Of a stretch of DNA of 64,000 nt, positions 1 to 62,579 are shown one piece after another. Origin of the DNA: Devosia algicola (lineage in GTDB: Bacteria; Pseudomonadota; Alphaproteobacteria; Rhizobiales; Devosiaceae); assembly GCF_028816455.1 (NCBI RefSeq), contig NZ_CP118246.1, positions 1,302,001 to 1,366,000 on the forward strand. Direction: 5' to 3'. The position numbers were made by a program, and so were the translations under genes. The notes beneath the pieces are model-generated. The model had not been told where the DNA came from, made no database searches, and saw nothing but the letters and a program-made list of their open reading frames with translations. Position 1 is the stretch's first letter; each line of letters starts with the position of its first letter.

Positions 1-720
1 TCAAAGCGCAATCTTGCAAACTTGGCCTCTGCCGCGATCCGATTGCAAAGCGCCACCAGTTCATCGCGGAACTCCACGCCGACAATCTCGATATCGGCCT
101 TGGCCACGCTGGTCAAATAATCGTAAAGCGCAAATGTGAGATAGCCTTTGCCTGATCCCATATCGACAATTTTGTGCAACCGATCTGCAGGGATCGCTTG
201 AATCAACGGCGCAAATATTTCGACCATCTTGTTGATTTGTCGATATTTATCCTGTGCAGCCTTGAGCACATTGCCTTGCGCATCCGCGATTTTGAGCGCA
301 TGCAGATAGGCTCTTGCCTTCCGGCGCAATCAATCGATGCTTGGTGCGATCATGGCTCGTCGACGGCACGTCTCGGTTGGCGTCCCGGCGCTTGATCCGC
401 ACCTTGTCGCCATGTTGCTCAAAGTTTAGGTCGAACTCGGTCGTTTCCAGCAGGGCCGTGCGGAACACCGCACCGAGATCAGCGCGCAGCAACGCCATAG
501 CTTCGGGCAGGATATGGTTTTTGATAATGTCGCGGGTCTTGTAGCGATAAGTGAAACTGAGCATGTCCTGCCGCTTCACGACGATCTTCTTGATTGCAAC
601 CGATTTGAGTGCCGCATCCGGCCCCTGATAGCCCATGAGCTTGAGCTGCACCAAACGACCATCGTTGAACGCCGTTTTCACATCGTTCAGGAAGGTTTCA
701 ATTTGTGGGGCGGCGGTCAA
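1..720 (-). CDS. class I SAM-dependent methyltransferase, C-terminus cut by window edge, one frameshift
   Basis: Reads leftward and runs off the window start. The visible part has a region with KIIVVKRQDMLSFTYRYKTR and HDRTKHRLI, then KYRQINKMVEI, then the SAM-binding loop VDMGSGKGYLTFALYDYL. This order is that of the large Methyltransf_32-type proteins (usually about 390-400 residues), whose substrate I do not know. The probable start is a TTG at 718-720 that overlaps the prfC stop as TTGA, which suggests translational coupling. The frame breaks at 308-313, where AGGCTC on the plus strand stands for AGCTC. Removing one base gives GKSYLHALKIADAQGN and joins both halves. Without that correction the N-terminal half seems fused to prfC, which is an artefact of a second break in prfC. 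Confidence 0.75.
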
Positions 721-2321
721 TGCCGTTCCTTGGTGGCCATGAAGCGCAGCTTGGGAAAATCCTGTTTGGCCCGATCCGCCCACCAGGCATTTTGGGCCAA
801 AAACACCGGCGCACCAGTGCGATCCTCGGCAATATTGGTTTTCTGCACGGCGATAAAGCGTTTCAGGCTCCTCGGGATCATCACTTTCGATCCAGCGTGC
901 AACCTCGAAATTCATGTTCTCGAAATCGATAGGCACGCCATACTCCTTGGCGATGCGCGAACCGAGCACTTCCAACTGCAGGGGACCAACGACGCCCACG
1001 ATCCAGTCCGAACCCATCATGCGCCGAAATACCTGGGCGACGCCCTCCTCGGCCAGATCATTGAGAGCCTTGGCCATCTGCTTGGTCTTCATCGCATCCA
1101 TCAGCCGCACGCGACGGATGATTTCCGGGGCGAAATTGGGAATGCCGGTCACATTGATCGATGCCCCCTCGGTCAGCGTATCGCCAACGCTGAGCGTGCC
1201 GTGATTGGGAATGCCGACAATATCGCCCGCCACCGCTTCCTCGGCCAGTTCGCGATCATGGCCGAAAAAGAACATCGGATTGGAAACCGCCATGTCCTTG
1301 CCGGAACGAACATTCTTGAGGCGCATGCCGCGCGTGAAGGTGCCCGAACATAACCGCACGAAGGCGATGCGGTCGCGATGGTTGGCATCCATATTTGCCT
1401 GAACCTTGAAGACAAAGCCCGAAACCTTCTTGTCCGATGGCTGGATCGGCTCTGGGATCGCCGGCTGGGGCCGCGGTTCTGGTCCCCATTCGCCCAAGGT
1501 GCGCAACAATTCGGCCACCCCGATGCCCTTGAGCGCAGAGCCAAACAGGACCGGGCTCAAATGACCGGCATGGAAAGTGTCCAGATCAAATGGCGGCAGC
1601 GCTGAACGCGCCAGGCTCCAATGATTCAAGCGCGGTCATGAATACCGGGTCATCCACCAGCGCTTCATTGTCGAGCAGATCCTCGATCTCCCCATATTCG
1701 GCAATTGGCTTGCCGGCCGGACTGAGCACGCGCCTTTCCAGCAAATCTATGTAGCCATGAAAGTCGACGCCCTGCCCGATGGGCCAAAGCATCGGCGTCA
1801 GGTCGAGTGCAAGCTTGCTCGCGATCTCGTCCATTAGGCTCCAGCGGGCCAAGCCCTTCGCGATCCACCTTGTTGATAAAGGTGATGATGGGAATATCGC
1901 GCAGGCGGCATACTTCAAACAATTTGAGCGTCTGCGCCTCGATACCCTTGGCCGCGTCAATGACCATGATCGCCGCGTCAACCGCGGTAAGGGTTCGATA
2001 AGTATCCTCGGAAAAATCCGAGTGGCCGGGTGTATCAAGCAGATTGAGCGTCAATCCATTCAATTCAAAGGTCATTACCGAGGAGGTGATCGAAATGCCG
2101 CGCTTCTGCTCGATTTCCATCCAGTCAGATCGTGTCGAGCGTGCGCCCGCCTTGCCCCGCACCGCTCCAGCGGCCTGAATAGCGCCGGCAGCCGCCAGCA
2201 ACCGTTCGGTCAACGTCGTCTTGCCCGCATCCGGATGCGAGATGATGGCAAAGGTTCGCCGCGTCTGAAATGGCGCTGCTACCATGCGCTCTTTTTCGGG
2301 GGACAGGTCTGTCATGCTCAT
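717..2321 (-). CDS. prfC: peptide chain release factor 3 (three frame breaks)
   Basis: GTPase that recycles RF1 and RF2 from the ribosome after termination. Visible are the P-loop SHPDAGKTTLTE, switch II LLDTPGHSDFSEDTYRTL, the NKVDREG guanine-specificity motif, and the family C-terminus EDRTGAPVFLAQNAW ... FMATKERH. The corrected length is 534 residues, close to E. coli RF3 (529). Three single-base insertions break the frame, at 1836-1841, 1613-1618 and 865-870. In each, GAGCCT in the coding strand should be GAGCT, restoring ELMDEIASK, LELARSALPPFDLD and EELKRFIAVQKT respectively. The start ATG at 2321 fits the family N-terminus. The downstream methyltransferase overlaps the stop by four bases. 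Confidence 0.93.
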
Positions 2322-2482
2322 GAAAATTCGAAACGCCTTGCCGGTTGCCAGCCGCTTTATATAAGGCGCGCTTGCAACTTTACATCAGTGGACTGTAAGT
2401 GCCTATGGCCGCTCTATAGGCCCAAGCCCGCGCAGGCGTCAAACAAATGCCGACCGGACACGCACTGCCGCCGCATCGGTGG

Positions 2483-2876
2483 CTAGTCGTCGAGGTCGAC
2501 AATTTGCGTGGCTATGAAGGCGCGCACCTCTTCCACCGCTATGCCGATGTCATCGATTGCTTCCTGCTGGGGCGGCAATCCGTCCTTCAACGCTTGCTCT
2601 GCCTGACGGGCCAATGTGGCGATACCAACAGCACCTACGCCTGCCGCCGCCCCTTTGAGCGTATGCAGGATTGGCGCATAGTCAGAGACGGCGTTCACGC
2701 CGCGCAACCGGGCCATATAGGCCTGGATGGTCTCGTCAAACATCGCCAGCACTTCAAGGCTCGAGGTTTGCATCCCCCAGGCACTGCTTGGCCAGATGCT
2801 CGCGATCAATCGGGCCCTGACGGCTCCCACCAGGTGCGGGATGTGAAACTTCAACTGCTGCCGAACCGCGTTTCAT
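2483..2876 (-). CDS. histidine phosphotransfer (HPt) domain protein (frameshift)
   Basis: About 130 residues, single HPt domain. The phosphorylatable histidine lies in LHTLKGAAAGVGA, the classic HxLKG helix, so this should pass phosphate between a hybrid histidine kinase and a response regulator in the cytoplasm. I chose the ATG at 2876 because GAGGT lies upstream and the N-terminal part (PIDREHLAKQCLGDANLE) aligns with HPt proteins once the frame is repaired. The break is at 2757-2762: GAGCCTTGAAG should be GAGCTTGAAG, giving LELEVLAMFDETI. It is divergent from the giant polar-growth gene. No kinase or regulator partner is in the window. Confidence 0.85.
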
Positions 2877-60803: not shown

Positions 60804-60853
60804 ACTATATGGAACTCCAGCCCAGCCCAAAATCGCTTGACTCATTGCTTACT

Positions 60854-60884
60854 CAAAAAAACTCGGCGCGGAAGCCGCACCGAG
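60854..60884 (-). terminator. strong terminator after ftsZ
   Basis: CTCGGTGCGG/CCGCGCCGAG stem followed by TTTTTTT on the minus strand, 30 bp past the ftsZ stop. Confidence 0.92.
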
Positions 60885-60913
60885 CAATGTTTCACAGACT
60901 TGGCAGCGCCCAC

Positions 60914-62579
60914 TTAACCGTGTTTACGCAGGAACGCTGGAATTTCGAGGTGTTCTTTTTGTGGTGCTGGCGCGGGCTGACGCCCCTGCGCGTCGAGGCT
61001 GCCATGAGCACCCCCGCTCGGCTGCGGAGCACGCGAAGGCCTTGTGCCACCGGCTTCTATGGCACTTCGGGCAGCATTGTCATCGGCCTCGATTTGGGGT
61101 GGCTCAACAGCTTGCTCAGCTTCCTGCTGGCCAAGATTGATACCAACATTTGACGCGAGCCGCTTGAACAATGCACGAGCATTGCGTGGCTCGCCTTCAT
61201 GACGATCCTGTGGCTCGTGTGACCGTCGTGCAACAACTGGCAACTCCTCGGTCCGGGGCATCCGCCGCTGACCTTCCGGACGCGCCGCATTAGACGGAAC
61301 ATAGAGGCTGGGTACGGGCTCTTCGACTGCTGGCGCGGGTTCGTCAACATCTTCGTGGACAGATCCCGATGGGGTATATGGCTCTACATAGATACCGTCG
61401 TCACCAATCTCGTCACCGCCAGTCGCAAAGTCCTCGTGCGTCATGGCCTCGGCCACCGCCGTTTCAACCTGATGCTCGATTTCGGCCTGCGTCGATTGCC
61501 CATCCGGGGCCAGATGCGGGCCGCGATGATCGGCATCTACAGGCACATGGCGCTTGACCGAAAGTGGGGTGCGCGAGGCATGTGGCTTGGCGGGCTCAAG
61601 CGCCTGAACCATAGTGGCATCTGTGCCCGTCGCGACAACGGAAACGCGGATCGTGCCGGTCAGGCTCGGGTCATAAGTTGCACCCAGAATAATGTTGGCG
61701 TCGGCATCAACCTCTTCACGAATACGGCTGGCGGCCTCGTCAACCTCATAGAGTGTCAGGTCAGGACCACCGGTGATCGATATCAACAGGCCGCGCGCGC
61801 CCTGCATCGACACATCGTCAAGCAGCGGGTTGGCAATGGCGGCTTCGGCAGCGTGCCGTGCACGATCATCACCCGACGCCTCGCCTGTGCCCATCATCGC
61901 CTTGCCCATACCGCGCATGACCGAGCGAACGTCTGCAAAGTCGAGATTGATCAGGCCTTCTTTGACCATCAAATCGGTAATACAGGCAACACCTGAGAAC
62001 AGCACCTGGTCGGCCATCGCGAAAGCGTCGGCAAAAGTGGTTTTTTCGTTGGCGACACGGAAAAGGTTCTGGTTGGGAATGACAATAAGCGTGTCAACGT
62101 GCCGATGCAGCTCATCAATTCCCTCGTCGGCCAGGCGCTGTCGGCGACTACCCTCGAATGAAAATGGCTTGGTAACAACACCAACAGTCAGGATGCCTTG
62201 CTCACGAGCCTGCACGCGCCACCACAGGCGCCGCCCCCGTACCCGTTCCACCGCCCATACCAGCGGTGATGAAAACCATGTGCGAGCCACTGAGATGGTC
62301 ATTGATCTCGTCCCAGCTTTCTTCAGCCGCCGCGCGCCCAACTTCGGGGTGCGAGCCAGCGCCCAAACCCTCGGTGACACCCACGCCAAGTTGGATGATC
62401 CGGGGTGCCTTGCTCAAGGCCAATGCCTGGGCATCGGTGTTGGCAACCACGAAATCCACGCCATCGAGACCGGATTCGATCATATTGTTAACGGCATTGC
62501 CGCCAGCGCCACCGGCACCGAAAACGGTGATACGGGGCTTAAGTTCCTGAATGTCAGGGATAGTAAGGTTGATGGTCAT
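60914..62579 (-). CDS. ftsZ: FtsZ cell-division tubulin homologue (frameshift)
   Basis: About 554 residues corrected; long C-terminal linker as in Rhizobiales. GTP-binding domain with VFGAGGAGGNAVNNM, tubulin signature GGGTGTGAAP, and C-terminal conserved peptide LEIPAFLRKHG that binds FtsA/ZipA-like partners. The frame breaks at 62206-62211: coding GCAGGCTCGTG should be GCAGCTCGTG, giving PVVARAAREQGILTVGVV. Unrepaired, it would end after about 126 residues, which is not compatible with life. Confidence 0.97.

Follow-up and report, generated by a model that had tools for sequence, protein, structure and literature searches.

One-base insertions at AGCTC in a Devosia algicola assembly are probably long-read consensus errors at a putatively modified base

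Background

Long-read artefacts linked to DNA modification are of a known kind. According to excerpts of a study of Listeria nanopore assemblies, each lineage had its errors concentrated at a single short motif (GCAGC, GCTGG), and in four strains the errors were linked to a defence system that bears a methyltransferase and is missing from good genomes; these errors were mainly mismatches and were demonstrated with amplified DNA and short reads (PMC10687267). In Klebsiella and other species, excerpts of a second report describe methylation-induced ambiguous positions that depend on the read strand, only some of which are wrong in the assembly (PMC11610573). The restriction-modification system LlaJI has two 5mC methyltransferases and an asymmetric 5-mer target, GACGC (excerpts of PMC1459862).

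Here, we analyze a window of 64,000 nucleotides (the whole stretch of DNA under study) and its genome. A preliminary description of the window had noted ten frame breaks at AGGCTC and attributed them to a read or consensus error at AGCTC, possibly due to a modified base. In a literature search restricted to open papers, none of the 10 listed out of 70 matching papers mentioned AGCTC as a methylation motif, and we know of no insertion-type artefact at this 5-mer.

Insertions in the window

On both strands together, the window contains 29 AGGCTC and 36 AGCTC (the preliminary description had put the unchanged AGCTC sites at about thirty), with means of 24.8 and 96.0, respectively, in dinucleotide shuffles of the window. 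Each of the ten listed AGGCTC sites was compared with 2 to 10 related genomes by frame-aware protein-to-DNA alignment, and all ten proved to be one-base insertions on which every covering relative concurs (Table 1). They fall in eight genes rather than in the ten originally counted, as prfC contains three of them. Both AGGCTC sites and insertions are found on the plus and minus strands, in agreement with the earlier reading. In DNA alignments with the nearest relative (G019), our genome is one base longer at 10/10 sites. At five of these, the G019 sequence is exactly AGCTC; at the remaining five (865, 1836, 2757, 45530, and 62206) it is another 5-mer, so that AGCTC as the true reading is deduced there from the letters of this genome itself. 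One extra base relative to G019 is also present, in ambiguous alignments, at 15448, 18505, and 42404. The last of these had been proposed as a probable further case and is a possible one here: its extra base falls in a poorly matching stretch, over which no G019 protein aligned.

An intergenic AGGCTC at 18730, likewise one base longer than its G019 counterpart, was absent from the original list. The GAGACTC at 38314 is a site of the same type as AGGCTC with a different inserted base.

Table 1. Positions of altered sites in the window, with the evidence from related genomes
Sequence	Position	Strand	Location	Evidence
AGGCTC, extra base	308..313	+	gene on minus strand that exits the window at its left end	insertion in 2/2 genomes, also vs G019; G019 AGCTC; G019 counterpart of the gene 413 aa
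AGGCTC, extra base	865..870	+	prfC (minus strand; NCBIfam)	insertion in 3/3 genomes
AGGCTC, extra base	1613..1618	+	prfC	insertion in 3/3 genomes; G019 AGCTC
AGGCTC, extra base	1836..1841	+	prfC	insertion in 3/3 genomes
AGGCTC, extra base	2757..2762	+	small gene, ~2486-2912 (minus strand)	insertion in 5/5 genomes
AGGCTC, extra base	4914..4919	+	long gene, ~3235-8736 (plus strand)	insertion in 10/10 genomes; G019 AGCTC
AGGCTC	18730..18735	-	intergenic, adjoins tRNA-Lys gene	G019 AGCTC within an otherwise matching 11-base stretch
AGGCTC, extra base	29874..29879	+	ilvH (minus strand; NCBIfam), acetolactate synthase small subunit	insertion in 4/4 genomes; G019 AGCTC
GAGACTC, extra base	38314..38320	-	hflC-type gene (NCBIfam HflC)	insertion in 4/4 genomes
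AGGCTC, extra base	41602..41607	+	thyA (minus strand; NCBIfam thymidylate synthase)	insertion in 4/4 genomes; G019 AGCTC
AGGCTC, possible eleventh case	42404..42409	-		one extra base vs G019 in a poorly matching stretch; no G019 protein aligned there
AGGCTC, extra base	45530..45535	-	long gene, ~43817-47456 (minus strand)	insertion in 4/4 genomes
AGCTC, extra base placed beside it (AAGCTC)	49061..49065	+	pcrA/uvrD-type helicase gene (NCBIfam pcrA)	insertion in 4/4 genomes
CCCCC run that lacks one base (homopolymer deletion)	57483..57487	+		deletion in 4/4 genomes
AGGCTC, extra base	62206..62211	-	ftsZ (minus strand; NCBIfam FtsZ)	insertion in 4/4 genomes

Motif specificity across the genome

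We surveyed 464 kb of this genome for frame breaks. Of the 55 that are insertions, 39 have AGGCTC no more than 12 bases away (background expectation of 1.04 per cent; binomial P about 1e-64), and the count is the same when support is tallied by distinct genomes. Six of the others are at AGACTC or AGTCTC, one is at a homopolymer, and nine are elsewhere, two of them adjoining AGCTC. The preliminary description had stated that its reading would be contradicted if other motifs accounted for as many breaks; these 464 kb show no such pattern. Among deletion breaks, six of nine are at runs of at least five equal bases.

In three relatives (G019, G010, and G004), none of the 11 insertion breaks is at AGGCTC; the break counts of G010 and G004 are lower bounds, because fewer of their genes have two references (106 and 109, vs 154 in our genome and 156 in G019). 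The relatives compared belong to other species; no second strain of this species was found. The best match to the thyA protein, sought as a same-species copy among the best 120 of 8000 scored, is 88 per cent identical. A 16S rRNA gene, sought as a conserved control, had no match in the genome sequence searched.

AGCTC tops a scan of all 5-mers against G019, with 23 sites converted and 49 unchanged (39 AGGCTC and 80 kept AGCTC under looser matching), which bears out the partial conversion noted earlier. In the reverse direction, none of the 109 AGGCTC sites in G019 has one base more than our genome. Where an AGCT of G019 lacks both the outer C and the outer G, its length is the same here in 526 of 546 instances; 15 show one extra base, and 13 of these 15 read AGGCTC or AGACTC here on either strand. 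AluI-type methylation of every AGCT is ruled out by this sparing of AGCT outside AGCTC/GAGCT.

Roughly one in three of the AGCTC sites shared with G019 reads AGGCTC here; this is, in all likelihood, a consensus error of long-read, probably nanopore-only, sequencing at a base within AGCTC/GAGCT that the strain probably modifies. This reading is based on the insertions, their motif, their absence in the compared relatives, the tRNA genes, and a noisy strand coherence over about 10 kb. That the pattern is confined to this assembly among the genomes compared strongly supports the error proposed at the outset; the modification, the sequencing platform, and the writer enzyme are what we infer from it. 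For a modified base within AGCTC the support is indirect, namely the spared AGCT, the compared relatives that do not exhibit the effect, and two methyltransferases of this genome that have no close counterpart among 60 relatives. The assembly consists of one contig with homopolymer deletions, as fits a long-read-only assembly.

Homopolymer deletions also suggest ordinary long-read errors, and the modified base is putative. One could accordingly propose that the basecaller needs no modified base to err at AGCTC and would do so in any genome sequenced with such chemistry and software. Provided that the platforms are comparable, we regard this as unlikely: G019, whose assembly is also a single contig with four of six deletion breaks at homopolymers, has 0/3 insertion breaks at AGGCTC and no lengthened AGGCTC, and among the 25 breaks of L078 and the 22 of L023, both badly broken named loci, none is at AGGCTC.

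The aligned sequence, about 371 kb, contains 104 verified conversions, which would extrapolate to roughly a thousand false insertions in the 3.6-Mb genome. Users of the assembly would mistake essential genes for pseudogenes and regard tRNAs as defective.

Transfer RNA genes

AGGCTC replaces AGCTC in the D-arms of 9 of 22 tRNA genes of this genome, a rate equal to that in the alignments. Among the tRNA genes read, the altered ones include those for Trp and Phe, which are the only ones of each, and three for Val. No D-arm has AGGCTC in samples from G019, G010, and G004 (0/10) or in 80 named loci (0/41). The insertions thus strike tRNA genes as well as protein-coding and intergenic DNA, in line with an error.

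A mutator or a targeted cellular process that adds G at AGCTC would make the insertions real; the deposited sequence does contain them. Such a process would have to have broken prfC three times and ftsZ, ilvH, thyA, and more simultaneously, and to have altered the D-arm in the one Trp and the one Phe tRNA gene read. A cell could hardly survive real D-arm changes of such extent, and we consider this explanation very improbable. Programmed slippage or editing, by which AGGCTC would be read as AGCTC and the genes would be functional as written, has nothing in its favor beyond the sequence itself. It would have to operate on eight genes, whichever the strand, and equally on tRNAs and on the DNA between genes, and G019 has AGCTC or another 5-mer at the affected sites; we give it next to no credence.

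Strand pattern

If the strain modifies a base in AGCTC/GAGCT, a basecaller untrained on the modification would meet a distorted signal, and the extra base would turn up in the reads from one strand. The consensus would then be erroneous where reads of the affected strand happen to prevail, and local prevalence of such reads would account for the partial conversion.

Among pairs of AGCTC sites within 10 kb of each other, 830 of 1344 on the same strand are concordant (745.5 expected; z = 4.6), as are 588 of 1138 on opposite strands (638 expected; z = -2.8). Neighbors thus tend to match when they share a strand and to differ when they do not, which, for a noisy test, fits a consensus decided by local read-strand imbalance and, with the homopolymer deletions, accords with an error. 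A further 400 kb, scored with an unverified proxy, gave z = 2.7 for the same strand and z = -2.4 for opposite strands; applied to the first 464 kb, the proxy gave only 2.3 and -0.7. The controls were noisy, with single bins at z = 2.6 (G019) and 4.2 (G010), and never produced the plus/minus pair. Same-strand agreement at 10-30 kb (z = 1.7, P = 0.05) and at 30-60 kb (P = 0.0045) extends beyond the span that we would expect of reads. Overall, 73/209 sites are converted on the plus strand vs 38/146 on the minus strand (P = 0.08). Real insertions would leave the 10-kb coherence, and its opposite sign on the other strand, without an evident cellular cause, and the transcription strand shows no effect (35/25 vs 61/70, P = 0.16).

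Candidate modification enzyme

The genome search suggested in the preliminary description yielded, as candidates for a specificity for AGCTC, two methyltransferases to which none of 60 relatives has a close match. One of the two is a C5 cytosine methyltransferase (TIGR00675; the sole PF00145 place in the genome) within a LlaJI-type restriction-modification island at 476.5-482 kb. The island also encodes a putative adenine methyltransferase, with an NPPF motif and a TIGR02987 match far below the cut-off, and a McrBC-like pair: an AAA subunit (PF20296 and AAA_5 in one gene) and, in the next gene, a LlaJI-type nuclease subunit (PF09563, E = 1.2e-58). It holds only one C5 enzyme, where a LlaJI-type system would have two 5mC methyltransferases. 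A C5 enzyme together with a putative adenine methyltransferase is what would be expected of an asymmetric target such as AGCTC/GAGCT. The island is the best candidate for the AGCTC writer, a weaker step than the error itself.

By eye, from sequence motifs, the C5 gene appears to change frame at GAGCCT (L235, 9340-9345); a frame check against relatives gave no alignment. PF02384, PF07669, and DndC have no match in this genome, and one D12-type methyltransferase is located at 1165157. The BglII-type family has a palindromic target, and the BglII-type system at 3278.8 kb, with its beta-class methyltransferase, is only a weaker candidate, as a palindrome reader set against an asymmetric site. A 5mC mark could be expected to leave a C-to-T footprint at AGCTC; the footprint is weak (44 vs 24, P = 0.02; in a second comparison, 44 vs 35, P = 0.37; converted sites counted back in both).

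We tentatively suggest that a LlaJI-like system of one cytosine and one adenine methyltransferase marks AGCTC/GAGCT, and that the assembly errors form an accidental methylome that maps its target and the local read-strand balance without raw data. We know of no LlaJI-type enzyme that targets AGCTC/GAGCT. Should this suggestion be true, testing for strand coherence in the same way might bring out unknown modification motifs in further long-read assemblies already deposited. More generally, if a modification underlies the errors, their pattern names the recognition sequence, and no reads are needed for a deposited assembly to reveal DNA modification.

Comparison with described systems

As in the Listeria assemblies, the excess errors are at one short strain- or lineage-specific motif; unlike the errors in excerpts of that study, which were mainly mismatches, they are one-base insertions, at AGCTC (PMC10687267). 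The Klebsiella case, according to the excerpts, involves mostly purine or pyrimidine ambiguities rather than insertions; in both cases only part of the positions are wrong, and a dependence on the read strand may apply here too, to go by the noisy strand test (PMC11610573). As in excerpts on LlaJI, the C5 methyltransferase of the island has as neighbors a LlaJI-type nuclease and an AAA protein that contains a methylase-associated domain; unlike LlaJI, the island has one C5 enzyme and one NPPF gene with a weak adenine-methyltransferase match, and its target would be AGCTC (PMC1459862). AGCTC/GAGCT is, like the LlaJI target, an asymmetric 5-mer, which the island may recognize (PMC1459862).

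Frame breaks at AGGCTC

The genome of Devosia algicola (G000), which contains the window, is a single contig of 3,600,370 bases with a completeness of 91.4. A gene next to the window assigns the DNA to Devosia, its closest named match being a Devosia rhodophyticola protein (97 per cent identity). Members of the genus inhabit soil and sea, and the nearest of 40 relatives is G019 (88 per cent identity over a 1.7-kb test stretch). Open reading frames of relatives were aligned to the window, and then to 464 kb around it, with a purpose-written local protein-to-DNA aligner that was allowed to step over one base. 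The preliminary description had attributed ten frame breaks at AGGCTC (GAGCCT on the other strand) to an extra G in AGCTC. All ten are one-base insertions, and at each of them the 2 to 10 genomes that cover the site all agree, but they fall in eight genes rather than ten; prfC, which is hit three times, ilvH, thyA, and ftsZ are indeed among these. At the ten sites, G019 has an exact AGCTC in five cases and a different 5-mer in five. At position 42404, which had been called a probable further site, no G019 protein aligned and the G019 DNA matches badly; the site is a possible eleventh case. An additional clean conversion of AGCTC to AGGCTC is intergenic (position 18730). On both strands of the window, AGGCTC occurs 29 times, near the 25 expected from dinucleotide shuffles, and AGCTC 36 times, far below the expected 96. 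Insertion breaks at 35133 and 3231 (four of four references each) have no adjoining AGCTC; the latter, close to a gene start, may be an alignment effect.

When at least two references were required, G000 had 55 insertions and 9 deletions, compared to 3 and 6 in G019, 4 and 6 in G010, and 4 and 5 in G004. G019 is a fair control (156 of 225 genes with at least two references, against 154 of 225 in G000), whereas G010 (106 of 224) and G004 (109 of 218) are less powerful because fewer of their genes had such coverage. With one reference sufficing, the insertions number 90 in G000 and 21, 29, and 32 in G019, G010, and G004, respectively. Within 12 bases of AGGCTC lie 39 of the 55 G000 insertions (gene-position background of 1.04 per cent; P ~1e-64), a count that is unchanged when the supporting references must be distinct genomes. 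The others comprise six at AGACTC or AGTCTC, one at a homopolymer, and nine elsewhere, two of which (positions 157991 and 249063 of the 464-kb sample) adjoin AGCTC with another base inserted. AGGCTC accounts for none of the 11 control insertions and AGACTC for a single one, from G010. At some G000 sites in the 464-kb sample (AGACTC, AGTCTC; e.g. window 38314–38320), the extra base is A or T, not G, and two of 21 aligned G019 copies of GAGCTC, a palindrome that contains AGCTC on either strand, appear as GAGACTC in G000. Six of the nine G000 deletions are at runs of at least five equal bases. Homopolymer deletions also account for four of the six deletion breaks in the G019 sample, and given these, G019 may be a long-read assembly too.

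Specificity for AGCTC

In 30 G019–G000 alignments (~373 kb; mean identity of 82.5 per cent), every 5-mer was scored for a one-base insertion with exact flanks. AGCTC ranked first, with 23 copies converted, all to AGGCTC, and 49 unchanged; we read the 5-mers ranked next as overlaps with AGCTC. In the reverse comparison, AGCTC was absent from the 20 top entries. Under looser matching, 362 AGCTC copies in G019 correspond to 80 AGCTC and 39 AGGCTC in G000, the remainder being mostly substitutions, and none of 109 G019 AGGCTC copies is one base longer than its G000 counterpart. Among 546 G019 AGCT sites that lack both the outer C and the outer G, 171 are identical in G000 and 15 show one added base, 13 of these reading AGGCTC or AGACTC there on one strand or the other. 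Conversion is more frequent after C (58/133) or T (18/40) than after A (31/154) or G (4/28).

The motif also occurs in tRNA genes. In a sample of 32 distinct genes (30 loci read; 42 tRNA matches in the genome), 22 have AGCTC (13) or AGGCTC (9) in the D-arm, the latter being three Val genes and Phe, Trp, Met, Thr, Gly, and Arg. AGGCTC was found in no D-arm of the G019, G010, and G004 samples (10 AGCTC) or of 80 named loci (41 AGCTC). The conversion rate of 41 per cent agrees with that in the G019–G000 alignments. Given the general structure of tRNAs, a cell could scarcely survive with an extra base before the D-stem in all three Val genes of the sample and in its sole Phe and Trp genes.

Origin of the insertions

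It is near certain that the AGGCTC insertions are an artefact, and likely that a modified base causes the error, in overall agreement with the preliminary description. A consensus error of a long-read, probably nanopore-only, assembly would be the simplest account. Such errors sit at lineage-specific pentanucleotides in published Listeria genomes (PMC10687267), and a second study demonstrates strand-dependent ambiguity (PMC11610573). As background from genomes other than G000, a paper that names two algal Devosia species describes three of its four genomes as MinION assemblies by Flye (PMC11324256).

A general fault at AGGCTC is argued against by two break-rich loci from a survey of 72 named loci, in which contexts were seen for the 14 with most breaks. 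The whole locus L078 (Devosia sp. A8/3-2) has 25 breaks in ~18 kb of gene sequence, in mixed places, and L023 (Candidatus Devosia symbiotica) has 22 in ~14 kb; none is at AGGCTC. The former is another break-rich assembly with a pattern unlike that of G000; the latter may reflect symbiont gene decay or assembly errors.

If errors came solely from reads of one strand, the errors of same-strand sites should coincide across the length of a read, and those of opposite-strand sites should alternate. The test covered 315 sites in G019-aligned DNA (104 converted) and permuted the labels among sites of equal strand and preceding base. At distances of up to 10 kb, 830 of 1344 same-strand pairs were concordant (745.5 expected; none of 2000 permutations reached the observed count); for opposite-strand pairs the count was 588 of 1138 (638 expected; P = 0.003). 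At 10–30 kb, z was 1.7 and 0.4, respectively. A proxy in which each AGGCTC was taken as converted, though some must be genuine, was applied to another 400 kb of G000, where z was 2.7 and −2.4 for pairs up to 10 kb apart and 0.2 and −0.4 for more distant ones; in the first 464 kb it gave only 2.3 and −0.7. The null is somewhat loose, since controls reach 2.0 and 2.2 (G019) and −1.9 and −1.2 (G010) within 10 kb, and their highest values in any one bin are 2.6 and 4.2. A same-strand excess at 30–60 kb in one run also counts against the read-length reading. The pairing of opposing signs is unique to G000 among the genomes tested, and transcription strand does not explain the conversion pattern.

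Candidate methyltransferases

The search of G000 yielded a CcrM-like enzyme, present in all 25 genomes searched and so named from its length and presence rather than a family test, and the enzymes tabulated below; PF02384, PF07669, and DndC had no match in G000.

Coordinates of methyltransferase candidates and of an RNA gene
Feature	Locus position	Genome or window position	Remarks
LlaJI-type restriction-modification island	L235 8536–13988	G000 476.5–482 kb	adjoins tRNA-Thr gene
C5 methyltransferase		G000 476.5 kb	part of the island
Beta-class methyltransferase	L234 9699–11042	G000 3278.7–3280.0 kb	adjoins BglII-type nuclease match just below cut-off
D12-type methyltransferase		G000 1165157	
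Permuted-type tmRNA		window 42526–42862	ARAGORN

Next in the island after the C5 gene come genes for an AAA protein that carries a methylase-associated domain and for a LlaJI-type nuclease (PF09563, E = 1.2e-58), as well as an NPPF-motif gene with a weak Alw26I-type adenine methyltransferase match. The C5 gene itself seems to shift frame at a GAGCCT. Among 60 relatives, neither the C5 piece (best 40 per cent over about half of it) nor the beta-class enzyme (best 30 per cent over most of it) has a close match, with short stretches reaching up to 48 per cent. The island is a lead as the writer of an AGCTC modification. LlaJI itself has an asymmetric 5-mer target and two 5mC enzymes (PMC1459862). 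AGCTC/GAGCT is likewise asymmetric, and one enzyme per strand on such a target would suit both this motif and an error confined to reads of one strand.
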